Positions 15-62,044 of a stretch of 64,000 bases of DNA are shown here, one piece after another. The notes beneath the pieces were generated by a model that had not been told where the DNA came from, searched no databases, and saw nothing but the letters and a program-made list of their open reading frames with translations. Each line of letters starts with the position of its first letter. Position 1 is the first letter of the stretch. A program made the position numbers and the translations under genes. This DNA comes from Spirosoma oryzae (GTDB lineage: Bacteria; Bacteroidota; Bacteroidia; Cytophagales; Spirosomataceae): the NCBI RefSeq assembly GCF_003002825.1, contig NZ_PVTE01000010.1, positions 124,001-188,000 of the forward strand, given 5' to 3'.

Positions 15-103
15 GTGAATGATTGAGTGGTTGAATGATTGAGTGACTGAATGGTTGGCTACGAATCATTCAATCACTCAATCATTCAACCACTCAATCA
101 TTC
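15..103. repeat. Octamer-word palindrome A (aroK leader)
   Basis: A perfect 30-bp inverted repeat pairs 17-46 with 74-103, and about 10 more base pairs with two mismatches continue inward to a short loop near 57-64. The left arm is a run of degenerate 8-bp words in exact register from position 15 (for example TTGAGTGG, TTGAATGA, TTGAGTGA, CTGAATGG; consensus NNGARTGR). The right arm is their complement and contains no G. The aroK start codon lies 12 nt after the right arm. Function is unknown. It belongs to a family with copies at 623, 11741, 56600 and 58132. Confidence 0.9.
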
Positions 104-115
104 GCGCATTCGCGC

Positions 116-622
116 ATGAAGAACGTTTTTCTAGTCGGGATGCCGTCGTCGGGCAAGAGTACGCTGGGGAAGCGTATCGCCGAAGCCCTACACTACCATT
201 TCCTGGATACCGATCGAATGATCGTGCGGGAGGAGGGTCGGTCGGTGCCGGAGATCTTTACCCAGTCGGGCGAAGCGTATTTCCGGGAGGCTGAGCGCCG
301 AATACTGCGAACGATTCAGCCGGGTCGTAGCCTGGTTGTGTCGACGGGTGGGGGGATGCCCTGCTACCACGGCAATATGGCATACATCAACGAGACGGGT
401 ATTTCCGTATTTCTCGACGTGCCGCCCGAGATTCTCCACCGACGTATGGTGGCACACGGACAGGCCGATCGGCCGTTGTTCGATGCCTCAGATCCGCAGC
501 TGCTGGCCGATCTGCAAAAGCGATGTACCGACCGAGCGCCCTTCTACACACAAGCCAATATCGTCGTATCAGGCGAAACCGACGCGGAACACGTCCTGCG
601 CCAATTGGGGCGGTGGCTGTAA
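116..622 (+). CDS. aroK: Shikimate kinase
   Basis: Cytoplasmic enzyme that phosphorylates shikimate to shikimate-3-phosphate with ATP, the fifth step of the chorismate pathway. The 168-residue protein has the family's normal length. Visible features are the P-loop GMPSSGKST (residues 8-16), the Asp pair in DTD (31-33), the shikimate-binding Arg in FREAE (56-60), the GGG motif (78-80) and the lid Arg in RPL (119-121). The ATG at 116 is chosen because the P-loop then sits at its usual distance from the N-terminus; a hairpin repeat ends 12 nt upstream and no Shine-Dalgarno is seen. The stop codon is followed immediately by a second element of the same repeat family. The gene stands alone and converges with the outer membrane protein gene. 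Confidence 0.95.
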   Translation: MKNVFLVGMPSSGKSTLGKRIAEALHYHFLDTDRMIVREEGRSVPEIFTQSGEAYFREAERRILRTIQPGRSLVVSTGGGMPCYHGNMAYINETGISVFLDVPPEILHRRMVAHGQADRPLFDASDPQLLADLQKRCTDRAPFYTQANIVVSGETDAEHVLRQLGRWL

Positions 623-698
623 TAGAATGATGGAGTGATAGAATGATTGATTAAGGGGGAACAGCCGGTTATTCAATCAGTCTATCACTCCATCACTC
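623..698. repeat. Octamer-word palindrome B between convergent stop codons
   Basis: The left arm starts on the base after the aroK stop codon and reads as 8-bp words TAGAATGA, TGGAGTGA, TAGAATGA. The right arm at 672-698 pairs with 625-651 at 24 of 27 positions. The right arm ends 8 nt before the stop codon of the convergent outer membrane protein gene. The loop contains GGGGGAACAGCCGG. It has no T-run, so it is not a classical terminator, although it could act as a bidirectional barrier. Confidence 0.85.
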
Positions 699-706
699 AA
701 GCATTG

Positions 707-2329
707 TTAAAAGAACGTTCCGACCGATAGCGTCACGTTCGTGCCCCGGTTGCTGGTCAGGACGGTTGGCGTGTTGGCATCGCTGGGTAGCGAGTAGGGG
801 GTAAAACCTGACGAATAGGTTAGGTAAGAACCCGACAGGTCGGCGAAGAAGCGGTCGTTACGAACCCCCAGTCCGGCTGATACCAACAGCTTAGACCGGT
901 CGGCGCGCGGTACCCGATCCAGATCGAATACGTACGCGCTGGGTAAGTAACCGACACCGGCCCGAACACGCGCGATCCCCGCCCGGAATTCGGCCCCTGC
1001 CCGCAGGTTTACGACGCTTTTGTACGTTGCCTGCACTTCGCGTGTTACATCCGAGCGAAACTGATTGTTTGTCTGAACGTCGTTGAAAGCTGTCGTGCGC
1101 GCCCGCATGCCACCGTAGCCCACGTATTCAGCGGTTGCCGTTAGAAAACCGGCTTTTCCGAGGAATACCGTAGCACCACCCGTTGCCCGGAAAGGCGTCT
1201 GCATCGAGTACGGAAAGTTATCGTTGCCGGTGACAACGGCTACGCTGCCCGGAGGAGTTGGGCCGTTCGGCGGGTTGATGATGTTCGGGTCTCTGGGGCT
1301 TGCCGACAGACTTTGCTGGAACTGCTCGCGCACGCTACTGAACGTCGGACTGACAATCGTTGCACCAACCTGCACTTCCGGCACCAGCTTATAAATAATC
1401 CCCAGCGTGGCATTGATACCCGTACCGGTTACTGTTAGCGTGTTGGTTTGAACGTAGTTGTTAAACGCCGTGCCATTGATAGGCGTTTCGGTAAACGCGT
1501 AGGTCGAATTGAAGCGCAGGCGCGTGATACCCAGCGAACCGCCGATGTAGAATTTGTCGTCGAAGTTACCCGCATACGCCAGCGTCCACTGCGAACTCGC
1601 ACCCGACCGACTGATCGTAGCCTGTTGCTGCTTTGCCGTGTTGGCATCCGCCCGCGCATACGGTGGACCAAATATCTGCCCACTCGCGTTCTGACCTACG
1701 ACGCCGGTTGGGTCAATCAGGTACAGCTGGTAAGCCGCAGCGGCCGAGTTAGCTGCCTGATTTGAGTTGAAATCGTACAGGTTGTTTATGGCTGCTCCCG
1801 TATAGCCATTTGGGTTGTTGTTGTCACCCGCGTTGGCCTCATTGACATACGTTTGCAGAATGGACGAGTTCCGGTTCTGATTGATGCCAACGGCGTTGAT
1901 ATAGTTTTGAAAATTCAGCGCCTGCGAATACGAGATACCGAAGTTCGACCGGCGGACACGCCGATTTTCGGGACCGTTGTCGCGACCGGAGAAGACGACG
2001 CTAAACTGGCCGATGCTGACGTTACCCTGCGTGCCGGTCGTCTGCGACCCCAGGTAGGAACTACGGTTGTTGACACCGTTGAACGATGGGCTGATACTTA
2101 ACTCCGAGCGGTTGTAGAAGCCGAGACCAGCGGGGTTGCCAAACAGGTTACTGGCATCACCGCCAAGTGCCGCTTGATTGCCACCCAGACCCCGAAAGCG
2201 GGCCGTTCCATTCAGCGTGTTTTCTGAATACTGGTACGTGGCATCGGCATAAGCCGCCGGTGTATCCTGACCGTAGGTTAGCTGTGCTACCGACAGCAGC
2301 AGGGCTGTCGTAAAGATAGTGTGTCTCAT
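707..2329 (-). CDS. Outer membrane protein, OMPP1/FadL/TodX-like
   Basis: Predicted outer membrane beta-barrel of 540 residues, similar in plan to FadL-type hydrophobic-substrate channels. Residues 1-20 form a signal peptide ending TYG before Gln21. The mature N-terminus carries a Gly-rich stretch, RFRGLGGNQAALGGDASN, then NPAGLGFY, the pattern seen at the start of OMPP1-family barrels in Bacteroidota. The rest alternates short beta-strand-like segments with Asn/Thr-rich loops and ends in an aromatic residue (LSVGTFF), as expected for a BamA-inserted barrel. The substrate cannot be told from sequence. No operon partner is seen; the next gene upstream on the same strand ends in its own terminator. 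Confidence 0.8.
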   Translation of the reverse strand: MRHTIFTTALLLSVAQLTYGQDTPAAYADATYQYSENTLNGTARFRGLGGNQAALGGDASNLFGNPAGLGFYNRSELSISPSFNGVNNRSSYLGSQTTGTQGNVSIGQFSVVFSGRDNGPENRRVRRSNFGISYSQALNFQNYINAVGINQNRNSSILQTYVNEANAGDNNNPNGYTGAAINNLYDFNSNQAANSAAAAYQLYLIDPTGVVGQNASGQIFGPPYARADANTAKQQQATISRSGASSQWTLAYAGNFDDKFYIGGSLGITRLRFNSTYAFTETPINGTAFNNYVQTNTLTVTGTGINATLGIIYKLVPEVQVGATIVSPTFSSVREQFQQSLSASPRDPNIINPPNGPTPPGSVAVVTGNDNFPYSMQTPFRATGGATVFLGKAGFLTATAEYVGYGGMRARTTAFNDVQTNNQFRSDVTREVQATYKSVVNLRAGAEFRAGIARVRAGVGYLPSAYVFDLDRVPRADRSKLLVSAGLGVRNDRFFADLSGSYLTYSSGFTPYSLPSDANTPTVLTSNRGTNVTLSVGTFF

Positions 2330-4060: not shown

Positions 4061-5533
4061 ATGGCAAAAGCAATTCCGTCGCGGAGCGAAAACTACTCTG
4101 AGTGGTACAATGAGTTAATCAAACGAGCCGATCTGGCCGAGAATTCCGCCGTCCGGGGCTGCATGGTGATCAAGCCCTACGGCTTTTCGATCTGGGAAAA
4201 GATGCAGCGTGCCCTCGACGATATGTTCAAGGAAACGGGCCATACCAACGCTTACTTCCCGCTCTTTATCCCGAAATCGTACCTGAGCAAAGAAGCGTCG
4301 CACGTTGAAGGGTTTGCCAAAGAGTGCGCTGTCGTGACGCACTATCGGTTGAAGAATGCGGAAGACGGCTCGGGCGTGATTGTCGATCCGGAAGCCAAGC
4401 TGGAAGAAGAACTGATTGTGCGGCCGACATCGGAAACGGTGATCTGGAGCACGTACAAGAACTGGATTCAGTCGTACCGGGATTTGCCGCTGCTGATCAA
4501 CCAATGGGCGAACGTCGTGCGCTGGGAAATGCGGACCCGTATTTTCCTGCGGACTGCCGAGTTTTTGTGGCAGGAAGGGCACACCGCCCATGCGACGGCC
4601 GAAGAAGCAGAAGCCGAAACCCGGCAGATGCTGGACGTGTACGCAACCTTCGCGGAAGAGTGGATGGGGGTGCCGGTCGTTCGGGGCGCGAAAACACCAT
4701 CGGAACGCTTTGCTGGTGCGGTCGATACGCTGTGTATCGAAGCGATGATGCAGGATGGCAAGGCGTTACAGGCAGGTACGTCGCACTTTCTCGGGCAGAA
4801 CTTTGCCAAAGCCTTCGACGTACAGTTCCTGAACAAACAGAATCAGCTGGAACACGTGTGGGGTACGTCGTGGGGGGTATCGACCCGGTTGATGGGCGCG
4901 CTCATCATGGCGCACTCCGACGACGATGGACTGGTGCTGCCACCAAAATTGGCTCCCATCCAGGTGGTGATCGTACCGATCTATCGTACCGACGAACAGC
5001 TTGACAGTATCTCGGCCAAGGTAAAACCACTGGTGCAGGAACTGAAAAAAGCGGGTATCTCGGTTAAGTTCGACGATTCGGACGCCAACAAGCCCGGCTG
5101 GAAATTTGCCGAGTACGAGCTGCGGGGCGTTCCTGTCCGGCTGGCCATGGGCGCGCGGGATCTCGAAAACGGCACCGTCGAAATCGCCCGGCGCGATCTG
5201 AAAACAAAAGAAACGGTTCCGTTCGAGGGGTTGACCGAGCGCATCAAAGCCTTGCTCGACGACATTCAGGCGAGTATCTACAACAAGGCGAAAGCCTTCC
5301 GGGAAGCGAACACGTTCAAGGTCGATACGTTCGAGCAGTTTCAGGAGCAGATCGAGAAAGGCGGTTTCATTCTGGCGCACTGGGACGGTACGGCCGAAAC
5401 CGAAGATGCCATCAAGGAAGCAACCAAAGCCACGATTCGCTGCATCCCGTTCGACCAGGAACCGGAAGACGGCGTCGATGTTTTCTCCGGCAAACCATCG
5501 AACGGCCGGGTACTGTTCGCCAGGGCATATTAA
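4061..5533 (+). CDS. proS: Prolyl-tRNA synthetase, short (archaeal/eukaryotic-like) type
   Basis: Cytoplasmic class II synthetase that charges tRNA-Pro with proline using ATP. The 490-residue protein has the length of the ProS type without the long editing insertion. In order: an N-terminal catalytic domain with the class II motif 2 RWEMR near residues 151-155, the proline-pocket TSETV, and motif 3 around [20 protein letters not shown] (near 268-287). Then comes the anticodon-binding domain (about 295-400, VVIVPIYR onward) and the C-terminal domain ending RAY, the usual Tyr terminus of this type. Translation starts at the ATG at 4061. It is monocistronic, with a promoter candidate at 3944 and a strong palindromic terminator after it. 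Confidence 0.95.
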
Positions 5534-5538
5534 CGGGT

Positions 5539-5705
5539 TTCAGTATTCGGTTTACCGTTCAACAAAAAGAGAGACGCAACAGCTGTTGCGTCTCTCTTTT
5601 TGTTAAGTATTCGTTCTCCACTTATTCGTGCGCTTGCTGGCGGAAGCGCCGTAAACCGACTACAGAAAACCGTAAGCTATATCCTGAAAACCTCAAACCG
5701 AAAAC
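5539..5705. repeat. Heptamer-word element F between proS and the PadR-partner gene
   Basis: The left part (5539-5558) carries AGTATTCGGTTTAC, which is identical to a segment of the bioB leader element. The right part is eight consecutive 7-bp words from 5650 (CGTAAAC, CGACTAC, AGAAAAC, CGTAAGC, TATATCC, TGAAAAC, CTCAAAC, CGAAAAC). A perfect 44-nt palindromic terminator lies between them. The last words run into the minus-strand gene: its stop codon (5693-5695) falls inside CTCAAAC, so the repeat encodes the final residues of that protein. Confidence 0.75.
5561..5604. terminator. proS: Perfect palindromic terminator after proS
   Basis: A 44-nt perfect palindrome (22 + 22, no spacer), with GC-rich middle and A/T-rich ends giving a T-run on either strand. 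It begins 27 nt after the proS stop codon and probably ends transcription in both directions. Confidence 0.9.
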
Positions 5706-6214
5706 TGCTGCTCGCGCACGCGGGCGAGGTACCAGCTGACACCGGCGTAGGTCATCCCGGCGACGCCCAGAATCCAGGCCAGCCCCGTCAGGCTGACGTA
5801 CGACCATTCCTTGCGGTTTAGCCCGTCCAGAATAGCGACCAGCATCAGGCAGAAACTGACGGCCATAATGATGGCGTTGCGCATGGTTAGCCGATACGAT
5901 TGCCGGAGGTCGTAAGCACCGTAGGCTTTGTTGCGAAACTGAAAAACGATGTCGTCCAGGCTAGCCTTCTGCAACTGCTCGTCGCTCATGGTCAGCTCCA
6001 CCTGATACCGTTCACGCAGGTGTTTGACGGCCGTGTGGGTTGCCTGATCGGTTACGGTTTCCAGCGCCTTGTCAAACGGCAACCCAATCCAGACATAGTG
6101 TTCGACTTCGCAGGCAAGGTGGTCGATCAATTCGTCGATCAGGGCATCGGAGGTGCCCGTTTTGAGCAGGTGTCGGCGTAGCGTGGCTACCTGTCCGTCG
6201 TTGAGTTTTTCCAT
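5693..6214 (-). CDS. PadR-associated membrane protein with TonB-like RNKAYGAY box
   Basis: A 173-residue protein of unknown function. Residues 1-75 are a soluble helical segment with the look of the permease-prefix/DUF1700-like domain that often follows PadR regulators. Residues about 94-108 read DIVFQFRNKAYGAYDLR, a motif that in Bacteroidota typically precedes the single membrane helix of TonB proteins. Two hydrophobic helices follow (about 116-134 and 143-163). The ATG at 6214 is preferred, leaving 49 bp to the PadR gene; an upstream extension would overlap that gene and has no domain support. The last residues and stop codon come from a heptamer repeat. Probably co-transcribed with padR. 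Confidence 0.7.
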   Translation of the reverse strand: MEKLNDGQVATLRRHLLKTGTSDALIDELIDHLACEVEHYVWIGLPFDKALETVTDQATHTAVKHLRERYQVELTMSDEQLQKASLDDIVFQFRNKAYGAYDLRQSYRLTMRNAIIMAVSFCLMLVAILDGLNRKEWSYVSLTGLAWILGVAGMTYAGVSWYLARVREQQFSV

Positions 6215-9570: not shown

Positions 9571-9578
9571 CAAAATTA
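9571..9578 (-). promoter_or_regulatory. -7 box for the acidic hypothetical gene
   Basis: The minus strand reads TAATTTTG, an exact TAnnTTTG match, 20 nt upstream of the start codon at 9551. It overlaps the menE stop codon. Confidence 0.5.
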
Positions 9579-10631
9579 GCGGATTTGGTCGATTGTCGCC
9601 CGTCGATCGATCTTGCCGGTGGGTGTTTCGCTGAATACGTCGACGGAATGCCAGGCTTTCGGCACGGAATACGGACCGAGTGCAGTACGAACAATCTGTT
9701 GAATCGTCGTCCATTGGGGCTCCGTCAGCGATGATCCTTCCAGCACGAGTACGACGCGTTGTCCCAGCCGGTCGTCGGGTAAGCCGGCGATAAACAGTCG
9801 GGGGCTGCGGTTGTGTTCGGCAAGGTAGGTCTGAATAAGCCGCTCAACAGGCTCGGGCTGCACCTTGACGCCCCCGCTGTTGATGACACTGTCGGCCCGG
9901 CCCAGCAGTCGGAACTGCGTCGCATCCCGTAAGTCAACGACATCGTTGGTCTGCACGCGTTCGAAGTTGGTGGCGGCTGACGTAATGTGCAGGCAACCCC
10001 GTTCATCGGTGCCTAAATCGACACCGGGCAGTGCTGTAAACAGGTCGGATACGGTCGGACCATTAAGTCGGTGGAGGGCGATGTGCGAAACCGTTTCCGT
10101 CATGCCGTAGGTCGCGTAGACCGGCGCGGTGATCGACTGAATAAGCCCTTCGAGTGCCGGGCTGGTAGCGGCTCCGCCTACCAGAATGGCTTTCATCCCG
10201 TCCAGAACAGCCTTTTTTTCAGGCGTTTCGGTCAGGATCGTTTGCAGTTGCAGAGGAACAAGGGCGGTGAACGCGAATGACTTACCCACCACTTCCGGGC
10301 GGATAAGCGGATTGCTGACCGGCTCAACAACCGTCATCGGTAGCGCCAGTTCCAGCCCCCGCACGAGCATCATCGTTCCGGCAATGTACCGCGTGTTCAG
10401 GCAGACCAGCGCCGAATCCCCCGCCTGCAATCCCAGTGCCTGCCCGGTCAGCTGTGCGCTGGCCCGCATCTGAGCACGGGTCAGCTCGATGGGTTTTGGC
10501 GTACCCGTCGAGCCGGAGGTGTGCAGCGTGAATGTTTCCTGGCCGCTCTGCCAGGCCCGGCAAAACTGCTGGGTGTGCGCTTCGTAATCGGTCTGCGCCG
10601 GTGGAAAGGGGCGGTCGGGTAAAAGAAGCAT
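9576..10631 (-). CDS. menE: o-Succinylbenzoate--CoA ligase
   Basis: Acyl-adenylate-forming enzyme that activates o-succinylbenzoate with ATP and CoA in menaquinone biosynthesis; MenB, encoded about 1.2 kb away, uses the product. The ANL motifs are clear: TSGSTGTPK (residues 38-46), YGMTETVSH (175-183), GRADSVI (244-250) and the catalytic Lys340 in TPTGKIDRR. At 351 residues it lacks the N-terminal lobe portion of longer ligases, as is usual for Bacteroidota MenE. A 14-bp tandem repeat sits just upstream of the start codon. An alternative is another short acyl-CoA synthetase, but the nearby menB favours MenE. Confidence 0.85.
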   Translation of the reverse strand: MLLLPDRPFPPAQTDYEAHTQQFCRAWQSGQETFTLHTSGSTGTPKPIELTRAQMRASAQLTGQALGLQAGDSALVCLNTRYIAGTMMLVRGLELALPMTVVEPVSNPLIRPEVVGKSFAFTALVPLQLQTILTETPEKKAVLDGMKAILVGGAATSPALEGLIQSITAPVYATYGMTETVSHIALHRLNGPTVSDLFTALPGVDLGTDERGCLHITSAATNFERVQTNDVVDLRDATQFRLLGRADSVINSGGVKVQPEPVERLIQTYLAEHNRSPRLFIAGLPDDRLGQRVVLVLEGSSLTEPQWTTIQQIVRTALGPYSVPKAWHSVDVFSETPTGKIDRRATIDQIR

Positions 10632-10642: not shown

Positions 10643-10712
10643 ACGATGACCGGGTCACGATGACCGGGTCACGATGACCGGGTCACGATGACCAGGTCGC
10701 GGTGATCGGGTC
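10643..10712. repeat. Five 14-bp tandem repeats between menE and the Rieske-like gene
   Basis: Exactly five head-to-tail 14-bp units of ACGATGACCGGGTC (10643-10712). The first three are identical, the fourth has one change, the last several. Each unit contains the small imperfect palindrome TGACCGGGTCA. The array fills nearly the whole gap between the Rieske-like stop codon and the menE start codon on the same strand, so it lies in the menE leader. The length, 2 x 7, recalls the heptamer elements elsewhere in the window. Confidence 0.9.
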
Positions 10713-10722
10713 ACCTAATCGA

Positions 10723-11289: not shown

Positions 11290-11748
11290 ATGGAAGAAGC
11301 AAAAGTTGTTGTCAATCCAATCTCGCCCGACAAGGTAGCCGCGTCGCCGGGCTTGCTCGAATACGCCCACACGGCGGGCGGTGCCGTCATTCGGCCCGAA
11401 GATAAAGGTAAGATCACCGGTCGGGCCGTTGCCGCCATGCGCGAACAGACCGACATGCAGCTCAGTCAGCTCTATAAGCAGATGCAGCTGCTGGCCGAGC
11501 AGGCGACCGCCATTCGGCACCGGGTCGAAATTTCCGAGCGTATTTACGCGGCACAGATGAGTTTCGAACCGGTAGTCGGACACACGTATCACTTTTACCA
11601 GCGCAAAAATGGTACCGATCTGCTGTCGATGGTTGGCCCGACGGAGTGGGGGCGTACCTTCCCTTTCGAGTGTTGCCTGGCTACCGTCCGCATGATGGCC
11701 GACCACACCTGGGACGTACAGTATCACGATGTTTCATATTCTGAATGA
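11290..11748 (+). CDS. DUF2452 family protein
   Basis: A 152-residue soluble protein of the DUF2452 type, common in Bacteroidota and without known function. The N-terminal third (GLLEYAHTAGGAVIRPEDKGKI) leads to a helical segment, MQLSQLYKQMQLLAEQA. The conserved C-terminal block has FEPVVGHTYHFYQRKNG, LLSMVGPTEWG and MADHTWDVQY. The ATG at 11290 is preferred to a TTG 12 nt upstream. The stop codon lies inside the first octamer of a palindromic repeat, so the last codon is shared with that element. menB follows downstream on the same strand. Confidence 0.8.
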   Translation: MEEAKVVVNPISPDKVAASPGLLEYAHTAGGAVIRPEDKGKITGRAVAAMREQTDMQLSQLYKQMQLLAEQATAIRHRVEISERIYAAQMSFEPVVGHTYHFYQRKNGTDLLSMVGPTEWGRTFPFECCLATVRMMADHTWDVQYHDVSYSE

Positions 11749-11840
11749 TAGAATGAATAAGTGACAGAATGATTGAATGGTCTGCACCTGTCGACTCATT
11801 TACTTATTCTGTCATTCAGTCATTCCACCACTCAATCACT
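11741..11840. repeat. Octamer-word element C between DUF2452 gene and menB
   Basis: The left arm is five 8-bp words in register (CTGAATGA, TAGAATGA, ATAAGTGA, CAGAATGA, TTGAATGG; 11741-11780). The right arm is the complementary type (TCATTTAC, TTATTCTG, TCATTCAG, TCATTCCA, CCACTCAA; 11796-11835). Pairing is imperfect because the words are slipped against each other. The first word contains the TGA stop of the DUF2452 gene (11746-11748), and the right arm ends 7 nt before the menB ATG. Confidence 0.85.
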
Positions 11841-12777: not shown

Positions 12778-13011
12778 TACCCCTAAATCCCCTGAAGGGG
12801 ACTTTGATCATACATAGACAAAGTCCCCTTCAGGGCAGGGCTGTTAAGTTCTTGATTGAATGCTGGTATTGGCCAAATTTCCTTCGGCTAAACCACCCCC
12901 CAGCCCCCTAAATGGGGAGCCGTTCATCCGCAGAATGCTCCCCCTTTAGGGGGCTGGGGGGTGGGGCTACCCAGAACTTAACGGCCCTGCCCTTCAGGGG
13001 ATTTAGGGGTA
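12778..13011. repeat. Three-tier nested palindrome (MITE-like), 234 bp
   Basis: The outer arms are a perfect 21-bp inverted repeat, 12778-12798 with 12991-13011. A second tier pairs 12833-12851 with 12973-12991 at 18 of 19 positions. The inner tier pairs 12891-12920 with 12937-12966 at about 27 of 30, with a 16-nt loop. The left half also contains its own hairpin (12791-12834). It occupies most of the 433-bp gap between menB and the DUF2071 gene. No coding capacity and no obvious target-site duplication were seen. It may be a non-autonomous mobile element or stacked insertions. Confidence 0.88.
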
Positions 13012-46623: not shown

Positions 46624-46750
46624 TTGATAGTTATAAAGTTGTAAGGTCGTAAAGTTATAAAGTTGCTGACGCCAGCGGTACTGGACGCGGTAGTCCCGGC
46701 GGGGAACCGCAACTTTACAACGCTACAACTATCCAAATCTATAACTCTAG
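46624..46750. repeat. Octamer-word element J (YTRTAARG type)
   Basis: The left arm has 8-bp words in register at 46631-46662 (TTATAAAG, TTGTAAGG, TCGTAAAG, TTATAAAG). The right arm at 46711-46750 is AACTTTAC, AACGCTAC, AACTATCC, AAATCTAT, AACTCTAG. The loop contains TCCCGGCGGGGAACCGC (46694-46710), nearly identical to the core in the element at 61992-62008. The stop codon of the MRJP-like gene (46747-46749, minus strand) falls inside the last word. Words differ completely from the GARTG-type elements. Confidence 0.82.
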
Positions 46751-47832
46751 TTAGGAAGTTTCATCCGGTACAGGCGGTACGGATAATCGGTCTTGTCTTC
46801 CCCGTCGTTGTATTTTTTGCCCCGGTTGATCTGCGCACAGGTCAGGTACAAATAGCCGTCCCAACCCACAGCGAAACTATCGGGCCAGATCAGCCGCCCG
46901 TCGCGGACAAGCGTCTTCAGCTCCCGCTTCGGCGTAAAATACCGCACGGCTTGGTTCGGTGAATCAGTCAGGTAGACGTTGCCGGCCTTGTCGGATGTCA
47001 TACCGTGCGATACGCCTACTTCACCCATCGTTTCGACCGCTGCCGACAATTGCGCCGGACTGAGCGATTCGTTGCGCAGGGCTTCGGTCGGGATGCGGTA
47101 CAGCTTGGTCTGGTTGATGGCCCGGTAATAGAAGTACGTGTTATCGTCGGTCAGAGCAATGCCGTTGACGTTGCTACTGAACGGCTTCCCCGTCTTGTCT
47201 TTCACGACCTTGCCATCCAGCCGTAGCGTAAAACCCGGTTCGGCTTTGGTCGATTTGTCGTCGGTCAGTACCGTCCGGCTTTTGCCCGTTTTCAAGTTTA
47301 GTACGACCACCGACGACCGCTTGGGGTCCGACAGGTAAGCGTACTGATGTTCCGTGTCGATGCGCACGTCGTTGAGCGCCGTTTGTTCGCGGGGCAGATC
47401 CTCGAACCGGTAAATCTGCTCGACTTTATTGGTCGCGAGGTCGATCTTCATCAGCTTAACGCCGTCGGGAATGGTCGCTTCCTCGCCGGGATTGCCGGGG
47501 TCGAGTACCCACAGCGCGTTGGTATTGTCGACGTACAGCGCCTGTACGTTCATGAACCGGTCTTTCGGTTTTAGCGAATCCCACTGATTCCATTCGGCAT
47601 TGGGGTACGGCTTTCGTTCGCCATTGACAATTTCGGCCAGCCCGTAGTTGTAGTTCGTCGGCTTCTTGGGGAAGGTGACGAAGATTCGGCGCTCTTTGGA
47701 AACGCCAAGACCGATGGGCTGGAATTTGCCGAATTCGGCGACCGTTTCGAGTGGGGTTTGCGATTGACCCGGCTGGGCCTGCGTGGATGCAATACTCATC
47801 AGGGTAAACAGACCTAGTAGCTGCGTTTTCAT
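46747..47832 (-). CDS. Major royal jelly protein/yellow-like beta-propeller
   Basis: An exported 361-residue protein with signal peptide MKTQLLGLFTLMSIASTQA. It follows the bacterial MRJP family plan: PIGLGVSKERRIFVTFPKK, YPNAEWNQW, NVQALYVDNTNALWVLDPGNPG, LNDVRIDTEHQYAYLSD, FSSNVNGIALTDDNTYFYYR and VSHGMTSDKAGNVYLTDSPNQAV. These mark successive blades of a six-bladed propeller. The enzymatic role of bacterial members is unclear (possibly lactonase-like). The gene is divergent to another six-bladed propeller gene (SMP-30-like). Its stop codon lies in a repeat word. Confidence 0.88.
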   Translation of the reverse strand: MKTQLLGLFTLMSIASTQAQPGQSQTPLETVAEFGKFQPIGLGVSKERRIFVTFPKKPTNYNYGLAEIVNGERKPYPNAEWNQWDSLKPKDRFMNVQALYVDNTNALWVLDPGNPGEEATIPDGVKLMKIDLATNKVEQIYRFEDLPREQTALNDVRIDTEHQYAYLSDPKRSSVVVLNLKTGKSRTVLTDDKSTKAEPGFTLRLDGKVVKDKTGKPFSSNVNGIALTDDNTYFYYRAINQTKLYRIPTEALRNESLSPAQLSAAVETMGEVGVSHGMTSDKAGNVYLTDSPNQAVRYFTPKRELKTLVRDGRLIWPDSFAVGWDGYLYLTCAQINRGKKYNDGEDKTDYPYRLYRMKLPN

Positions 47833-47954
47833 GCGTTGAGCGTAACAGATAACCTGCTCAGATAACCGGGCGTGTGCGCTAAGGTTTCAAAATCAGCCCG
47901 GCTGGCACAGGTGGGGTGTCACAATATGATCATCATTGAAATCAATAACATGCT

Positions 47955-48035
47955 GCGAGTAGTTTTCAGTTTGTCGCCCTTAGTTCTGCCATTGCCGATC
48001 AACCACGAACGACAAACTACAAACCGAATACTCAA
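47955..48035. repeat. Heptamer-word element I (leader of the SMP-30-like gene)
   Basis: Left words of 7 bp from 47955: GCGAGTA, GTTTTCA, GTTTGTC, GCCCTTA, GTTCTGC. The centre contains CATTGCCGA, also present in the LolD leader element. Right words from 48001: AACCACG, AACGACA, AACTACA, AACCGAA, TACTCAA. The right arm ends 1 nt before the ATG at 48037. Pairing is imperfect but both arms keep the 7-bp register. Confidence 0.78.
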
Positions 48036-48036
48036 C

Positions 48037-49083
48037 ATGATGCGATTTCTCTTCTTCTGTGTCGTCAGTAGCTTACTGGCCGGGTCCGTGCTGGCCCAGT
48101 CTGCCCAATACACCACCATCGGTGCCGTCGTCCGGATGGACCCCCAGCTCGACAAACTGATCGCTCCGGGTACGGTCATCGAAGTTGTCGGGTCGGGGTT
48201 TGCGCACTTAGAGGGACCTGTCTGGGCGAAAGACAGCAGCTACCTGCTTGTCAACGACACGAAAGCGCAGATCACCTATAGCTGGTCGCCAACGAAAGGG
48301 ACGACAAAGTTTCTGGAACATTCGGGCTATACTGGTCGACTGCCGTATGGCGAAGAGCCGGGAGCGAATGGCATGTCGATCGATCCGCAGGGGCGACTGG
48401 TGATGGCTGAACATGGCGACCGGCGCATTGCCCGCATGCCGCTGATTGGTCACGGGGGTAAGGAAACGGTGAGCGACGCGTACCAGAACAAACGCTATAA
48501 TAGCCCCAACGACGTACTCGTCCACACCGACGGTAGTATTTACTTCACCGACCCGACCTATGGACTGCCGAAGAAAGACACTGATCCGGCGCGTGAACAG
48601 CCCGTGAAAGGTGTCTACCGCTTGCCGGCCGGTGGACGGGGTGCCGCTACGCTGCTCGTTAGTGACCTGACGTATCCCAACGGACTGGCGCTGTCGATGG
48701 ACGAAAAAACGCTGTTCGTGTCGCAATCCGACTCGGCCAGACCGATCATTATGGCGTATCCCGTGCTGGCGGGTGGCTCGCTGGGTAAAGGCCGTGTCTA
48801 CTTCGATATGAGCAAGCTTCCCCGGCTCCGGTACAAAGAAGTACCCGATGGCCTGAAAGCCGATCAGGCGGGGAACCTGTGGGCGAGCGGACCGGGTGGT
48901 TTGCTGGTCATTGCGCCCTCGGGAGCCGGGAAGACCGGTAAACTGATTGGGCGGATCGATACGGGCGAGGTGATCTCGAACTGCGCCTGGGGCGACGACG
49001 GGTCGATGCTGTATATCGTGTCGGGTACGTATCTCTGTCGCGTCAAAACCAACACAAAAGGCCACCTACAGGGCAAACCGTAA
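48037..49083 (+). CDS. SMP-30/gluconolactonase family protein, exported
   Basis: A 348-residue periplasmic or secreted six-bladed beta-propeller. The signal peptide is MMRFLFFCVVSSLLAGSVLAQ. Metal-site and active-site candidates fit the SMP-30 family: Glu in HLEGPVWAKDSSYLLVND, Asn in RYNSPNDVLVHTDGSIYFTDP, and Asp in KEVPDGLKADQAGNLWASG. Family members hydrolyse sugar lactones with a divalent metal. The start at 48037 (or 48040) gives a clean signal peptide; the frame is open for 55 codons upstream, but those fall in the repeat element and lack coding character. Confidence 0.88.
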   Translation: MMRFLFFCVVSSLLAGSVLAQSAQYTTIGAVVRMDPQLDKLIAPGTVIEVVGSGFAHLEGPVWAKDSSYLLVNDTKAQITYSWSPTKGTTKFLEHSGYTGRLPYGEEPGANGMSIDPQGRLVMAEHGDRRIARMPLIGHGGKETVSDAYQNKRYNSPNDVLVHTDGSIYFTDPTYGLPKKDTDPAREQPVKGVYRLPAGGRGAATLLVSDLTYPNGLALSMDEKTLFVSQSDSARPIIMAYPVLAGGSLGKGRVYFDMSKLPRLRYKEVPDGLKADQAGNLWASGPGGLLVIAPSGAGKTGKLIGRIDTGEVISNCAWGDDGSMLYIVSGTYLCRVKTNTKGHLQGKP

Positions 49084-51511: not shown

Positions 51512-51597
51512 GGTTTACAGTATTCGGTTTACAGTCATGCGATGGCAGCGGTAAACGGAATACCGTGAACCGTAAACTGTAAACCATAAACTACGTT
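51512..51597. repeat. Heptamer-word element G (bioB leader)
   Basis: The left arm is 7-bp words GGTTTAC, AGTATTC, GGTTTAC, AGTCATG (51512-51539). The right arm is six words GGTAAAC, GGAATAC, CGTGAAC, CGTAAAC, TGTAAAC, CATAAAC (51550-51591), followed by TACGTT and the bioB ATG. The two arms are complementary (GTTTAC with GTAAAC). The AGTATTCGGTTTAC segment recurs at the element after proS. Confidence 0.85.
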
Positions 51598-52593
51598 ATG
51601 CTGCGTACCGACTGGACCCGTGCTGAAATTGCCGATATTTATAATTCGCCCGTACTGGAACTGATCTACCGGGCCGCTACCGTACACCGCGAACACCACG
51701 ATCCACAGGAGGTGCAGGTATGTACGCTGCTGTCGGTCAAGACGGGCGGTTGCCCCGAAGATTGTGCCTATTGCCCGCAGGCTGCCCGCTACCATACCAG
51801 CGTCAAAACCCACAAACTGCTGGAGGTCGACGAAGTACTGACGGCGGCACAACGGGCGAAAGACACGGGCAGCACGCGTTTCTGCATGGGCGCGGCCTGG
51901 CGTGAAGTGCGCGACAACCGCGACTTCGACAAAGTGCTCGACATGGTGCAGGGCGTCAACGAAATGGGCCTTGAAGTGTGCTGTACGCTCGGTATGCTCA
52001 CCGAAAGTCAGGCGCAGAAACTGAAGGATGCCGGTCTGTACGCCTACAACCACAACCTCGACACCAGCGAAGAATACTACGGCGACATCATCAGCACCCG
52101 CACCTACGACGACCGGCTCGATACGCTTGGTCACGCGCGTAAAGCCGGAATCTCGGTTTGCTCGGGTGGTATCATCGGCATGGGTGAGTCGCATACGGAT
52201 CGGATCGGTATGCTGCACACGCTGGCTACGCTGCCCCAGCACCCGGAGTCAGTACCGGTCAATGCGCTGGTACCGGTAGAAGGTACACCGCTGGAAGATC
52301 AACCCCGCGTGTCGGTCTGGGAAATGGTGCGTATGATTGCGACGGCGCGTATCATCATGCCGAAAACGATGGTGCGGCTGTCGGCGGGACGCGTGCGGAT
52401 GAATACGGAAGAGCAGGCGCTGTGCTTCCTGGCCGGGGCCAACTCGATCTTCGCCGGCGACAAACTCCTGACCACGCCCAACCCCGACGAAGACGCCGAT
52501 CAGCAACTGTTCCAGACGCTCAACATCCGACCTCGTAAGGCGTTCAAAAACAACGATCAGCCGGCCGTCGTCTTCGAGCAGATTCCGTTATAA
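51598..52593 (+). CDS. bioB: Biotin synthase
   Basis: Radical SAM enzyme that inserts sulfur into dethiobiotin, the last step of biotin synthesis. The 331-residue protein has the SAM-cluster cysteines C52, C56 and C59 ([12 protein letters not shown]), the family block [24 protein letters not shown] and the closing LSAGRVRMN and [13 protein letters not shown]. Ligands for the second [2Fe-2S] cluster should be the Cys in FCMG, the Cys in EVCCTLG and the Arg in SAGRVRM. It is monocistronic, with a promoter, a hairpin leader and a terminator; other bio genes are not in the window. Confidence 0.97.
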
Positions 52594-56174: not shown

Positions 56175-56603
56175 ATGAACTGGCGTATCGTTCCGTACCG
56201 GACTGAGCATACTGAATCGCTCCGGCTTGTCTACCAACAGGCTCGTCAGGTAGCTTTTCCCTGGATCGATCCAGTCAGTTTTCGACTGACTGATTTTGAC
56301 GCGGTCACTCGGGAAGAAACCGTATTGGTCGCGGTTGAGCAGGCGACTCCTGTCGGGTTTATCGCCTGGTGGCCACCGGACAATTTTATCCATTCCCTGT
56401 TCGTCAGTCCCGCGTATATCGGACGAGGGATAGGCAAAGTGCTCCTACGGACCTGCCTGGCAGACATAGGCCGTCCGGTAACGCTCAAATGTAAAGCAGC
56501 CAATCAGCGGGCGCTCCAGTTCTACTATTCGCAGGGATGGCAATTTGTTGAACAAGCGGAAAGCCCGCAGGGGGCCTATGTGCTACTTACGTACGGCGGT
56601 TGA
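56175..56603 (+). CDS. GNAT family N-acetyltransferase
   Basis: A 142-residue acyl-CoA-dependent acetyltransferase. The acetyl-CoA-binding motif A is IHSLFVSPAYIGRGIGKVLLRTCL (P-loop R-G-I-G-K at about 83-87), preceded by PVGFIAWWP (strand beta-4) and followed by NQRALQFYYSQGWQFVEQ (motif B with the conserved Tyr). The substrate is unknown. Its stop codon TGA (56601-56603) lies within the first octamer of a repeat element, so the last base of the gene belongs to the repeat. It converges with a beta-barrel gene. Confidence 0.9.
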   Translation: MNWRIVPYRTEHTESLRLVYQQARQVAFPWIDPVSFRLTDFDAVTREETVLVAVEQATPVGFIAWWPPDNFIHSLFVSPAYIGRGIGKVLLRTCLADIGRPVTLKCKAANQRALQFYYSQGWQFVEQAESPQGAYVLLTYGG

Positions 56604-56703
56604 ATGGTTGAATGATGGAGTGGTTGAGTGGTTGAGTGGTTGAGTGATTGAGTGATTGGCTATTTATTCAACAACCATTCAATCACTCCATCATTCACTC
56701 ATA
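56600..56703. repeat. Octamer-word element D after the GNAT gene
   Basis: Seven consecutive 8-bp words from 56600: TTGAATGG, TTGAATGA, TGGAGTGG, TTGAGTGG, TTGAGTGG, TTGAGTGA, TTGAGTGA. The right arm has CATTCAAT, CACTCCAT, CATTCACT (56676-56699). Pairing around GAATGATGGAGTGRTTGA is 17 of 18. The first word contains the GNAT stop codon, and the right arm ends about 10 nt before the stop of the convergent beta-barrel gene. It is the clearest example of the 8-bp register. Confidence 0.9.
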
Positions 56704-56712
56704 CAATCTGCT

Positions 56713-57279
56713 CTACCTCAGCTTAAACGAAAGGCCGATATTACCCTGCCAGCCGCTGTGATCGGGAATCAGGTACGTTTGCTTTAGCTGACTACGTTCA
56801 ACACTAGCCTCGATAGACCAGCGAGCCCCGAGTCGGTACTGCGCCCCAGCGCCGGCTGTCAGTTGCCAGGTGGTTCCTTTAAGGGCAGAAAGGGGGCGGT
56901 AGGGGTCTGTCGGTTCGACTTTGCTGTAGACATGTTGACCAACGCTGGCCCCTACCTGACCAAACAACGCCAGCCGATTACGGCGCAGGAAATAATACCG
57001 GGTCGATAAGCCACCCCCCAGATAGCTGAAGTCAGGTCCCGTTCTGCTATACCGAGCTTCGGCCTGCAACGCCCAGCCATCGGCCAGGAAATACTGAATG
57101 CGTGGTGTGATGTTCGTTACCACCCCCAGTCCGCTACCATAACCACCCCCGCCACTAACGCCGACAGACCAATGGCCTTTTCCCAACAGATCGTCCTGTT
57201 TATCATCAGCCGTTGATTGAGAAAAACTCCAGAATGGGAGCAAACACAAACAGAAAAGTAGGATTACACAACGTCGCAT
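56713..57279 (-). CDS. Outer membrane beta-barrel protein
   Basis: A 188-residue protein with a signal peptide (MRRCVILLFCLCLLPFWSFSQ). It is an eight-strand type OmpA/OmpX-like barrel: GHWSVGVSGGGGYGSGLGV, YFLADGWALQAEARYS, GGGLSTRYYFLRRNRLALFGQVGASVG and AGAGAQYRLGARWSIEASVE, ending IGLSFKLR. No peptidoglycan-binding domain. The ATG at 57279 fits the signal peptide; earlier codons do not. It is followed on the same strand, 109 bp upstream, by another small barrel protein gene. Confidence 0.8.
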   Translation of the reverse strand: MRRCVILLFCLCLLPFWSFSQSTADDKQDDLLGKGHWSVGVSGGGGYGSGLGVVTNITPRIQYFLADGWALQAEARYSRTGPDFSYLGGGLSTRYYFLRRNRLALFGQVGASVGQHVYSKVEPTDPYRPLSALKGTTWQLTAGAGAQYRLGARWSIEASVERSQLKQTYLIPDHSGWQGNIGLSFKLR

Positions 57280-58131: not shown

Positions 58132-58163
58132 TATTCAATCACTCAATCATTCGTTCATTCAAT
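58132..58163. repeat. Single-arm octamer element E
   Basis: A/C-rich 8-bp words TCACTCAA, TCATTCGT, TCATTCAA (58139-58162) correspond to the right arm of the GARTG-type elements, but no left arm is present nearby. It lies 12 nt after the stop codon of the polysaccharide-lyase remnant, so a deletion may have removed the partner arm. Confidence 0.7.
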
Positions 58164-58174: not shown

Positions 58175-58560
58175 TTAGTTAGTCTGGCCAGGTTTCACAA
58201 TTTCGTACGTAGCTGTAGCGTTACCGATCCGCACTTCGTCATAGTAAAGCACGCGTTCAGCGTATTTTGATTTACTCGTCCAGGCATAGATGCCTATTTC
58301 CCAGTAAGGCTTGACCAGTTCCCGATAGCCAATATTGACGTTCTGTTCGTCAACAATCTGCTTACCGTCCTGCCAGATTTCCAGGATGCCTGTGTTGCCA
58401 GTAGGTCCCACTTTACATGCACAACATAGTCGACCCATTTGTCATAAATGCCTGAGCCTAAATGAATAATCTTCTGACTTGTTGGTGCCTGCTGGTATCT
58501 GGTAATGGATACGTCTGAAGCACGATAGTAGTACCAGATCGGGCCGTGTGAGCCTAGTCA
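58175..58560 (-). pseudogene. Frameshifted 3' remnant of a heparin-lyase-I-like polysaccharide lyase
   Basis: The minus strand encodes GPIWYYYRASDVSITRYQ and QKIIHLGSGIYDKWVDYVV in one frame, then PTGNTGILEIWQDGKQIVDE and PYWEIGIYAWTSKSKYAERV in another. The two join at VKWD-PTGN if one C is restored near 58405 (GGTCCCA where GGGTCCCA is expected on the plus strand). Together they match the C-terminal part of heparin lyase I/PL-type proteins (HVKWDPxGNTGxLEIWxDG; GIYxW). A stop codon (58558-58560) closes the upstream frame. The N-terminal 150-200 residues are missing. Decayed gene, not likely functional. Confidence 0.75.
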
Positions 58561-59466: not shown

Positions 59467-59483
59467 AGAAAAGTGATAATGCG

Positions 59484-60617: not shown

Positions 60618-60633
60618 GTTATGTAGTGGAAGC

Positions 60634-61857
60634 TTACGCCTGCTGACCCTTCAGCACTTGCTCAACTTTCTCCGCAGCTTCCTTCAGCAATACAGCCGAG
60701 TATACTTTCAGCCCCGACTCGTCGATGATACGAGCACCTTCTTCGGCGTTGGTACCCTGCAAACGAACGATGATCGGAATGTTGATGTCGCCGATGGCTT
60801 TGTAGGCTTCAACAACGCCCGTCGCCACGCGGTCGCAACGAACGATACCACCGAAGATATTGATCAGGATCGCTTTAACGTTCGGATCTTTCAGAATGAT
60901 CCGGAAACCGGCTTCAACCGTCTTGGCGTTGGCACCACCCCCTACGTCGAGGAAGTTCGCCGGTTCACCACCCGACAGTTTGATGATATCCATCGTCGCC
61001 ATTGCCAGGCCGGCACCGTTCACCATACAGCCTACGTTACCATCGAGTTTAACGTAGTTCAGGTCGCTGGCCGTTGCTTCTACTTCGAGGGGATCTTCCT
61101 CGGCAACGTCACGCAGGTTAGCCAGGTCAGGGTGGCGATACAGGGCGTTGTCGTCCAGGTTTACTTTGGCATCGACCGCCAGGATTTTGTTGTCAGACGT
61201 TTTCAGGACCGGGTTGATCTCAAACATCGACGCGTCGGTTTCGACGTACGCTTTGTAAAGCGAGGTGACAAATTTCACCATCTCTTTAAACGCTTCGCCT
61301 TCCAGACCCAGACCGAAGGCTACTTTACGCGCCTGGAACGGCTGCAAACCAACGGCCGGATCGACCCACTCCTTCACGATTTTCTCGGGTGAATGCTCGG
61401 CGACTTCTTCGATGTCCATACCGCCTTCGGTGCTGGCCATGATGACGTTGCAGGCTTTCGACCGGTCGAGCAGGATACTCAGGTACATCTCTTTAGGCTC
61501 CGAAGCGCCGGGGTAAAAGACGTCCTGGGCAACCAGAACCTTATTGACTTTACGGCCTTCCGGACCCGTCTGGTGGGTAACCAGTACGTTGCCGATCAGA
61601 TTTTTGGCGATATCCCGAACGTCGTCAACCGATTTGGCCAGCGCAACGCCCCGCTGTTCCGAACCGACAACTTTGCCTTTACCGCGACCACCAGCGTGGA
61701 TCTGCGACTTCACGACAACGAACTTCGAACCCGACTGTGCCATGATCTGCTTGGCCGCTTCAACGGCTTTCTCGGGCGACTCGGCTACGATACCTTCCTG
61801 AATCCGGACACCGTATTTTTTGAGAATTTCTTTACCCTGATACTCGTGTATATTCAT
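60634..61857 (-). CDS. sucC: Succinyl-CoA synthetase (ADP-forming) beta subunit
   Basis: TCA-cycle enzyme subunit of 407 residues that binds nucleotide and couples succinyl-CoA cleavage to ATP or GTP formation; it works with an alpha subunit (SucD) encoded elsewhere. The ATP-grasp N-terminal domain shows MNIHEYQGKEILKKYGV, KSQIHAGGRGKGKVV, and EMYLSILLDRSKACNVIMAS. The nucleotide/Mg site NPVLKTSDNKILAVDAKVNLDDNAL and the C-terminal CoA-ligase domain (GLAMATMDIIKLSGGEPANFLDVGGGA, INIFGGIVRCDRVA) follow. Start at 61857. Transcribed convergently to lpxH. Confidence 0.97.
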   Translation of the reverse strand: MNIHEYQGKEILKKYGVRIQEGIVAESPEKAVEAAKQIMAQSGSKFVVVKSQIHAGGRGKGKVVGSEQRGVALAKSVDDVRDIAKNLIGNVLVTHQTGPEGRKVNKVLVAQDVFYPGASEPKEMYLSILLDRSKACNVIMASTEGGMDIEEVAEHSPEKIVKEWVDPAVGLQPFQARKVAFGLGLEGEAFKEMVKFVTSLYKAYVETDASMFEINPVLKTSDNKILAVDAKVNLDDNALYRHPDLANLRDVAEEDPLEVEATASDLNYVKLDGNVGCMVNGAGLAMATMDIIKLSGGEPANFLDVGGGANAKTVEAGFRIILKDPNVKAILINIFGGIVRCDRVATGVVEAYKAIGDINIPIIVRLQGTNAEEGARIIDESGLKVYSAVLLKEAAEKVEQVLKGQQA

Positions 61858-61887
61858 GGTAATGGCAACATGGAGTGTTGGAAATCG

Positions 61888-61895
61888 TATTTTTG
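61888..61895 (+). promoter_or_regulatory. -7 box upstream of the LolD-like gene
   Basis: TATTTTTG on the plus strand, an exact TAnnTTTG match, 24 nt before a heptamer palindrome that fills the leader, and 150 nt before the GTG start codon. Confidence 0.6.
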
Positions 61896-61918
61896 TGCGG
61901 CAAGTTAAGCATAAATGA

Positions 61919-62044
61919 GTTCGTAGTTTGTGGTTTGTCGTTCGTAGTTTGTCATTGCCGAACCCGATTCCCGGAATCGTTTACCAACAAATCCCGGCGG
62001 GGAGCCGCGCTAACTACAGACTGCCACTATAAACCACAAACCGA
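61919..62044. repeat. Heptamer-word element H (leader of the LolD-like gene)
   Basis: The left arm is 7-bp words GTTCGTA, GTTTGTG, GTTTGTC, GTTCGTA, GTTTGTC (61919-61953). The right arm (62010-62044) is A/C-rich with CTAACTA, CAGACTG, CCACTAT, AAACCAC, AAACCGA, ending directly at the GTG start codon. The centre has CATTGCCGA (shared with the element at 47955) and the core TCCCGGCGGGGAGCCGC (61992-62008), 16 of 17 identical to that at 46694-46710. A small palindrome GATTCC/GGAATC lies at 61966-61978. Confidence 0.82.

Follow-up and report, generated by a model that had tools for sequence, protein, structure and literature searches.

A 64,000-nucleotide stretch of the Spirosoma oryzae genome (hereafter the window; contig NZ_PVTE01000010.1, our contig C10, positions 124001-188000) carries in its intergenic gaps palindromes whose arms consist of tandem degenerate words in a register of 7 or 8 bp. 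A preliminary description of the window listed ten such elements and raised the question of what they are: structured leaders and trailers that expose or hide initiation regions, or a mobile or slippage-built class of elements that targets gene ends. To our knowledge, the bacterial preference for repeats of about 7 nt has no settled explanation. The comparison of orthologous gaps, which that description had proposed, revealed that the place and the period of these word palindromes are shared with a related genome (G020) at 38 gaps, while the words are mostly different. We tentatively infer, with a probability of about 45%, that the elements are stop-proximal RNA hairpins whose words turn over while the register and the stem persist; their function and the mechanism of turnover are deduced from comparisons of sequences.

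Detection of periodic word palindromes

The genome of S. oryzae comprises 6.57 Mb in 75 contigs, and a sample of 1.264 Mb including the window (about 19% of the genome) was analysed. In one scan of named records, from which the genome itself or very close ones may be missing, the best match was a Spirosoma sp. metagenome-assembled genome (90% identity of the proS product), followed by Larkinella and Runella. Genes were predicted with a home-made hexamer-based caller. Repeats were sought at lags of 4 to 15, with Markov-resampled intergenic DNA as the control. A first scan with a stricter mismatch penalty gave few segments (intergenic and genic, respectively: lag 7, 5 and 1; lag 8, 13 and 3; lag 14, 9 and 0; Markov control, 0), and the threshold was therefore loosened and the control repeated. 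At the final threshold of 11, there were 58 intergenic segments at lag 7 compared with 4 genic ones and 1.0 in the control, 43 compared with 8 and 0.6 at lag 8, and 30 compared with 3 and 0 at lag 14. At other lags, intergenic segments numbered 1-4 (lags 5, 10, 11 and 13) or 9 (each of lags 4 and 9). The register of 7 or 8 bp is thus borne out by a strong intergenic excess over both genes and control, and none of the outcomes named beforehand as contradicting it (no excess of periodicity or of codon-adjacent positions, or equal frequency inside genes) was observed in the 1.264 Mb.

A looser set holds 117 merged elements in S. oryzae (approximately one per 10.8 kb, 11 of them within genes), and a stricter one holds 72 elements in S. 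oryzae and 71 in G020. Among 198 gap inverted repeats with arms of at least 18 nt in the S. oryzae sample, 64 were periodic at lag 7 or 8 at a first cut. A set of 80 named loci, predominantly from Bacteroidota, yielded lag-7 arrays of different words 39 times in intergenic DNA versus 4 times in open reading frames (ORFs) of at least 120 aa, and lag-8 arrays 12 times versus none.

Orthologous gaps share place and period

S. oryzae and G020 show 86% DNA identity in proS and a median protein identity of 90.5% (359 reciprocal best hits of at least 60%). After removal of 32 short gaps from the 290 conserved adjacent gaps compared, 258 were kept, and an array was detected in both genomes in 38 of them, in S. 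oryzae only in 13, in G020 only in 8 and in neither in 199. The period agreed at all 38 shared loci (period 7 in both genomes at 24, period 8 in both at 14, none mixed; Fisher's test, 1e-10). The word dialect, in turn, differed at 26 of the 38, one by a tie (C2 105047, scored 1:1, where AAAGARYG words are seen by eye in both genomes, which would make it 25 of 38). Differences were found at 17 of the 24 period-7 loci, including 13 with GTNTWC versus GTNYRA words, and at 9 of the 14 period-8 loci, where TTGARTG and AAAGARYG were swapped in both directions (6 loci, one a tie, and 3 loci); the GTTRTAR dialect was kept at three of three period-8 loci. For neither period was the similarity of orthologous elements detectably above that of same-period non-orthologues (best identity, medians 0.667 vs 0.657, p = 0.13, for period 7 and 0.746 vs 0.636, p = 0.12, for period 8), the period-8 medians leaning towards similarity.

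A strict ungapped test for a periodic hairpin was passed in both genomes at 23 of the 38 loci, in S. oryzae only at 7, in G020 only at 5 and in neither at 3. Of the 26 loci with a changed dialect, 15 have strict stems in S. oryzae as well as in G020, and therefore both arms must have changed together there. Detection of elements is threshold-based and missed some in the one-sided gaps, where at least 6 of the 21 counterparts visibly hold words. At two loci (C4 146899 and C1 349432) the relative has only a short gap, either by loss or because the element was never gained.

Elements stand behind stop codons

Of the looser set, 105 of the 117 elements lie in gaps: 47 in '<<' and 25 in '>>' gaps, 26 between convergent and 7 between divergent genes. 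Strict-set elements of same-direction gaps lie at a median of 5 nt from the stop side and 21 nt from the start side in S. oryzae (n = 51), and of 4 and 15 nt in G020 (n = 45). Where such gaps leave at least 60 nt free, 8 of 11 elements in S. oryzae and 8 of 12 in G020 lie no more than 15 nt from the stop, where 1.3 and 1.1 would be expected if placement were random, and none of the 23 is within 15 nt of the start. Non-periodic inverted repeats of same-direction gaps have a median distance to the stop of 35 nt (n = 67) and 51.5 nt (n = 40). Divergent gaps are avoided, as elements occupy only 2 of 143 and 4 of 111 of those of at least 50 nt (Fisher's test, p = 5e-5 and 9e-5), and the divergent share is 2 of 71 strict hairpins and 7 of 105 in the looser set. 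All elements had initially been reported to abut a start or a stop codon; such adjacency does exist, but the codons concerned are, across the genome sample, stops and not starts. The window over-represents start-adjacent cases because three of its elements lie between divergent starts. Leaders that hide or expose initiation regions, the function first considered, are not supported by the gaps with at least 60 nt free, in which 16 of the 23 elements of the two genomes hug the stop and none the start.

Sites after stops and between convergent genes are also those expected of intrinsic terminators, here with an unusual stem. Another inverted repeat (score of at least 12) was found in 11 of the 21 counterparts of one-sided gaps, compared with 20% and 25% of background gaps, although some of these are missed word elements. 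However, T or A runs of at least 4 show no excess beside the stem (they flank 12% and 17% of the elements versus 10% and 16% of other inverted repeats), the word arms at 5539-5705 of the window enclose a separate terminator-like hairpin, and many elements leave only 10-20 nt to a downstream start on the same strand; full termination would be costly with the next start so near. Ordinary terminators are thus a very improbable explanation. The missing T runs speak against canonical termination, and intercistronic sites with 10-20 nt to the next start speak for stabilisation or partial termination.

Words, arms and polarity

A stem typically consists of about 3-5 degenerate words of a fixed length of 7 or 8 bp. 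Words had been said to differ between elements, and at least five word families were indeed found, i.e. the period-7 families GTNTWCR, GTTYGTN, GTTTAAN and the GAAGAAAG type, and the period-8 families TTGARTGA, AAAGARYG and GTTRTAR. The first arm, earlier called T/G-rich, is polarised, but the better rule is an excess of G over C, which holds for 69 of 72 periodic elements in S. oryzae and 67 of 71 in G020; the 3' arm is C-rich. Six of the seven exceptions listed do not look like word elements, and non-periodic inverted repeats split between G>C and C>G as 52:52 (n = 121) and 37:30 (n = 76). Since the elements are palindromes, a transcript of either strand would carry a hairpin with a G-rich 5' arm and a C-rich 3' arm, placed a few nucleotides downstream of the stop codon.

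With registers set by the anchors, the logo consensus is G-T-[TA]-T-[AT]-C-[GA] in S. oryzae and G-T-T-[TC]-[AG]-A-N in G020. The period-7 anchors are near-invariant (G 99% and T 100% in S. oryzae, 100% and 98% in G020), values that are favoured by the anchors having chosen the registers, and position 6 is C in 91% of S. oryzae words versus A in 74% of those of G020. The G residues are isolated anchors; GGG appears only at some word boundaries, and a G-tract of at least three per unit was not found. Complementarity of period-7 arms is 0.89 and 0.90 within elements versus 0.66 and 0.65 in the best register between elements. In S. oryzae, both arms carry GTNTWC-type words at 88 of 103 rungs; many elements of G020 are mixtures of GTNYRA- and GTTYGT-type words, and GTNTWC words are few there. 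No inner-outer trend that would trace a direction of conversion was visible by eye in these mosaic elements. Stops in all three frames, considered as a purpose of periods indivisible by 3 and then set aside, were found more often in elements than in control chunks (77 of 144 versus 169 of 480 in S. oryzae, and 99 of 142 versus 102 of 320 in G020), a comparison confounded by word composition.

Near-invariant anchors, strict polarity and a period kept at 38 of 38 orthologous loci would also be expected of arrays of recognition sites for a trans-acting factor whose cue on RNA or DNA is an anchor (GT every 7, GA every 4 or 8, or GT every 8 nt), a drift of the factor's preference moving all sites and thereby producing genome-wide dialects. 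The drift of the other word positions and the avoidance of identity between neighbouring period-7 words (see below) fit this explanation as well. At least three grammars per genome would, however, require several factors or a loose one, and the period-8 TTGARTG/AAAGARYG differences run both ways at single loci rather than genome-wide. We consider such arrays unlikely. Still less likely is a more elaborate, period-reading system at mRNA 3' ends, in which a putative trans factor would recognise the anchor of the G arm every 7 or 8 nt, grammars would coexist, and a species would convert a whole group of sites in situ to another dialect, with period, polarity and locus kept.

Palindromes of other words (GGATTTAAC, ACAGGATT and CACAGAG) were seen at L160:15641 and L156:19331 (G004) and in the S. 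oryzae C1 gaps 24418, 80816 and 243067, those of ACAGGATT being partly included in the 7/8 sets.

Loops, vocabulary and possible dispersal

Loops are 3 to 107 nt long, many of them 16-20 nt. In S. oryzae most show no relation to one another (68 loops with 6 similar pairs); in G020, 52 loops gave 25 alignments, in which some pairs were aligned repeatedly, and 13 of the 15 shown join two period-8 loops. Some loops enclose another dispersed hairpin (TGTAGCCTGGACG...). A REP-like (repetitive extragenic palindromic) hairpin family, TGTAGCCTGGACGTCC...GGACGTCCAGGCTACA with variants, is nested in the loops of word palindromes in the S. oryzae C1 gaps 14847, 18224, 23087, 25033 and 324870, and stands alone at C1 293862, where the relative carries a word palindrome. 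A scan of the window against Rfam 15 at the gathering score gave no match.

In the whole S. oryzae genome, TTGARTGATTGARTG (one mismatch allowed) has 286 matches versus 1 for the reversed pattern, and it has 1-528 matches per genome in 24 members of the genus. The pattern GTWTWCGGTWTWCGG, most abundant in S. oryzae (263), is present in 31 of 36 genomes, and AAAGARYG pairs occur in all 36. In turn, GTTYAANGTTYAAGG is nearly private to G020 (150 matches; 13 in G022, 5 each in S. oryzae and G039, and 0-1 in the other 32 genomes), a genome that uses mostly one dialect, that of GTTYAAN words. The samples of G014, G017 and G004 contain other words, and 100 kb of G023 contained no periodic element.

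A near-private dialect could point to dispersed mobile palindromes resembling REPs or REPINs (REP doublets forming hairpins), moved by a transposase in trans, with new dialects spreading and replacing old ones at gene ends. The period-7 arms of S. oryzae have a positional consensus (GTTTACG as the inner word in 14 of 26 elements, then GTATACG/GTATTCG, and commonly GTTTTCG as the third), from which a history of dispersal is possible. S. oryzae has one weak Y1 transposase match (a 256-aa frame). REPs are described as able to supply stop codons (available sections of PMC3733652), as does a word element in G020: the gene preceding the shikimate kinase orthologue there has the same orientation, and the opening words of the element that corresponds to window element 15-103 contain the stop codon of this gene. 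Against mobility, S. oryzae loops are mostly unrelated, several grammars coexist, and G020 shares the loci but with other words of the same period, so that replacement would have to respect the period. Moreover, G019 (100% complete) has no Y1_Tnp match and yet 53 word matches, versus 3 for a control pattern; PF01797 may miss diverged REP-associated tyrosine transposases (RAYTs) both here and in S. oryzae. Y1 and word counts showed no relation by eye (G017, the richest in words, has 3 Y1 matches; G016 has 14 and 80 words), which gives no support to a RAYT or other transposase as the driver. The mobile class envisaged at the outset is thus not supported, and dispersal by transposition appears rather unlikely.

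A further dispersed repeat, with AT-rich words like GATTTATTTGATT, lies at S. oryzae C1:182410-182840; its diverged matches in G020 number in the dozens and fall on either strand, and it forms a class distinct from the word palindromes.

Word elements of the window

The ten elements are as follows (positions in the window).

10-56 and 64-110 (arms; listed as 15-103): period-8 palindrome of TTGARTGA words with a 7-nt loop; the extent first listed ends 12 nt before the shikimate kinase start at 116.
623-698 (arms 625-654 and 669-698): period-8 palindrome of TTGARTGA words in a convergent gap, immediately downstream of one stop (622) and 8 nt short of the opposing one (707).
5533-5705 (listed as 5539-5705; arms 5533-5555 and 5651-5673, 87% complementary): period-7 word arms between the convergent genes proS and 5693-6214 (reverse strand).
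11741-11840 (arms 11742-11779 and 11797-11834): period-8 palindrome overlapping the stop of 11290-11748 (forward strand).
46624-46750 (arms 46629-46666 and 46709-46746): period-8 palindrome of GTTRTAR words touching the stop of 46747-47832 (reverse strand), about 119 nt from the next start.
47955-48035 (arms 47962-47985 and 48001-48024, 75% complementary): weak period-7 palindrome in a divergent gap by the called starts.
51512-51597 (arms 51512-51535 and 51562-51585): period-7 palindrome in a divergent gap, an exception to the stop rule.
56600-56706 (arms 56600-56634 and 56672-56706): period-8 palindrome of TTGARTGA words, 6 nt from the stop of 56713-57123 (reverse strand; ORF to 57330).
58132-58163: single period-8 arm (fold 0.0, no hairpin), 11 nt from the stop of 58175-58411 (reverse strand).
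61918-62044 (lag-7 segment 61918-61952): period-7 palindrome of GTTYGT words (fold -43.1 kcal/mol) in a divergent gap, an exception to the stop rule.

Word arms form recognisable inverted pairs at nine of these ten places; the lone arm at 58132-58163 departs from the plan first given for all ten, which suggests a remnant or half element. The inverted-repeat list contains seven of the places (all but 5539-5705, 58132-58163 and 61919-62044), 47955-48035 being the weaker one, and a longer ORF (47872-49083) would put this element inside a gene. The counterpart of 623-698 in the G020 gap is a period-8 palindrome of AAAGARYG words. The terminator-like hairpin enclosed at 5539-5705 is a perfect one of 22 bp (5561-5604). 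At 11741-11840, 13 nt separate the arms from the start called next on the same strand, the arms at 51512-51597 end 12 nt before the start of 51598-52593 (a Radical SAM/BATS protein), and 61918-62044 directly precedes the start of 62045-62704 (forward strand; an ABC transporter ATPase). The loop of 46624-46750 contains a 14-nt segment common to two elements on C4.

The window lag scan agrees that no element lies between 13.1 and 46.6 kb, an absence that is only mildly unusual, because about three elements would be expected at one per 10.8 kb. Genes of the element-free region (13905-46509) are mostly on the reverse strand, and 6 of 8 proteins scanned there had Pfam matches (a TIG domain, a glycosyltransferase, a polysaccharide biosynthesis protein, two beta-helix proteins and a TonB receptor). 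Two other repeats of the window are a tandem array of the 14-bp unit ACGATGACCGGGTC, in about five copies, at 10643-10714 (from 11 nt upstream of the start of 9576-10631, reverse strand), and nested inverted repeats with CCCTGAAGGGGACTTTG and CCCCCAGCCCCCTAAA segments at 12790-13004, which resemble the gap at S. oryzae C1 246749.

Turnover of words and weighing of the explanations

As stop-proximal RNA hairpins, the elements would be kept for an action on the mRNA 3' end or between cistrons, as a shield against 3' exonucleases or by partial termination, and pairing would matter more than sequence. At the DNA level, slippage would add or remove entire words, and one arm may, less certainly, be rewritten from the other by template switching, a source of paired changes in RNA hairpins that is in print (available sections of PMC8794818). 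Whole-unit slippage together with arm rewriting would therefore let register and stem survive a change of words.

Two pairs of closer species (third codon position identity of 80.7% for G004/G045 and 84.4% for G043/G046, the latter yielding 9 gaps) show turnover at a shorter scale. A contribution of slippage, suggested early on, is supported by an arm that differs by exactly one 8-nt word (L161:1559) and by a 7-mer array of 22-23 versus 8-9 copies (L165:8887). Paired changes in both arms around an identical loop occur at L165:14469 and at L160:15641, the latter a GGATTT-type stem without 7/8 periodicity. Among 343 stem pairs in 11 alignable hairpins, 286 were the same, 12 had changed on both sides and remained paired, 2 had changed on both sides otherwise, 35 on one side and 8 were gapped; template switching would leave multi-base compensatory changes in both arms. 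Two period-8 hairpins of G004 (L157:11506-11611 and L157:12860-12956) are 100% identical in G045 (118 and 109 aligned nt), while the 415-aa gene between them has a third-position identity of 55.5% and the outer neighbours, in the same direction, have 81% and 86%. Identity beside a diverged gene would fit selection or recent exchange.

Copy-number change by whole words is equally expected of neutral debris, i.e. slippage-prone 7- and 8-mers gathering where they are harmless, with promoters and coding DNA excluded and the DNA behind stops left; 7 nt as a unit of polymerase slippage is an idea cited in PMC4679880 and PMC4692102 (in their available sections). The avoidance of genes and of divergent, promoter-bearing gaps, the two loci with only a short gap in the relative and the few two-arm changes in clear word stems agree with it. 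Debris would hardly hug the stop even with at least 60 nt free, where non-periodic inverted repeats keep farther away, nor show strict polarity and neighbouring period-7 words that avoid identity. The stems paired in both genomes at 15 dialect-changed loci and the two elements perfectly conserved beside diverged genes also oppose it, and we find neutral debris doubtful.

Several observations weigh against stop-proximal hairpins with persisting stems. The strict hairpin test fails in at least one genome at 15 of the 38 loci, and the period was kept in only 6 of 7 gaps with arrays in both close species, with one change from 8 to 7 (L158:19498). By called genes, three of the ten window elements (47955-48035, 51512-51597 and 61919-62044) lie between divergent starts, two of them outside the strict hairpin set. 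The absence of an excess of T or A runs and the many same-direction gaps with 10-20 nt to the next start, described above, count here too. Of the 177 stem pairs in six clearly periodic hairpins, 156 were unchanged, 18 had a one-sided change and only 2 a two-sided change that kept the pairing; 1 more had changed on both sides otherwise. The 12 double changes fall into two stems without 7/8 periodicity (7), an ordinary terminator (1), a low-periodicity stem (2; score 0.37, passing the lag-7 detector in one species only) and clear word stems (2). One-arm changes are thus commoner than paired ones at the short scale, and arm rewriting, for which the direct evidence in clearly periodic stems is thin, is therefore argued from the long-scale comparison and from hairpins of neighbouring types.

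Under simple slippage, neighbouring words should be alike; adjacent period-7 words are, however, identical less often than order-shuffled ones (0.056 vs 0.097±0.015 and 0.011 vs 0.049±0.011) and so do not fit it. The effect is weak or absent in period-8 GA words (0.088 vs 0.104±0.016 and 0.051 vs 0.096±0.023) and GT words (0.000 vs 0.038±0.024 and 0.067 vs 0.071±0.029). In S. oryzae the word is correlated with its rung (a chi-square as large as the observed one in 0 of 1000 shuffles), a pattern that dispersed copies would leave; it is not seen in G020 (546 of 1000). Finally, a genome-wide dialect goes beyond processes within an element, and exchange between elements is the likeliest added process.

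Significance and comparison with known systems

The new part is the replacement of words at a constant period together with the coexistence of several grammars; intergenic heptamer repeats themselves are already known. No account of Spirosoma word palindromes or of constant-period word replacement was found in the literature searched, which included few subscription journals. How long stems stay paired during sequence change is debated (available sections of PMC8794818). This question and that of the 7-nt preference come together in these elements, of which each genome holds many natural replicates and whose period and place are inherited while the words mostly are not. Orthologous gaps provide pairs for which slippage, arm templating, exchange between elements and selection on RNA predict different outcomes. 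Period-7 and period-8 arrays with other words occur in many of the 80 named loci, most of which belong to Bacteroidota; should the hairpins act on mRNA ends, this phylum would thus possess a large class of such 3' structures.

Short tandemly repeated repetitive (STRR) sequences of cyanobacteria are comparable intergenic heptamer arrays. The analogy with such repeats, drawn in the preliminary description, holds for the tandem degenerate units of about 7 nt, the intergenic excess, the nearness to stops and the rarity between divergent genes. The G-rich heptamers GGGAATC of Xanthomonas and GGGGA(T/C)T of Nostoc PCC 7120 are, as far as the available sections of PMC4692102 describe them, likewise degenerate, intergenic, near stops on the sense strand and rare between divergent genes. 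Those of Xanthomonas further form 70 and 75 inverted pairs in convergent orientation; inverted pairing and conservation of loci are shared with the present elements. In contrast, theirs is one quadruplex-capable G-tract heptamer, whereas the Spirosoma words have isolated G anchors and combine several 7- and 8-bp grammars in one genome, with a dialect that varies from one species to another at an unchanged period and place.

The P6b stem of the Nostoc tRNA-Leu(UAA) intron (PMC3488679, available sections) resembles the present elements in that degenerate heptanucleotides pair into one hairpin, with length differences due to copy number and more than one repeat class; it occupies a single intron site, whereas the Spirosoma elements stand behind many stop codons and also use 8-bp words. 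The TAACTGA repeats of Beggiatoaceae, Cyanobacteria and five Bacteroidetes are also intergenic heptamer arrays adjoining codons, with a scattered distribution, but the parts of PMC4679880 available describe them as direct repeats of a single word, mostly upstream of starts in the type genome, with one inverted repeat. Finally, like REPs and REPINs (PMC3116915 and PMC3733652, available sections), the word palindromes are short intergenic inverted pairs able to overlap stops. A REPIN combines two copies of a conserved repeat and is linked to a RAYT gene; the present elements, by contrast, have words that differ between loci and S. oryzae loops that are mostly unrelated, and thus are not copies of one palindrome including its linker, although arms in S. 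oryzae have a positional consensus.

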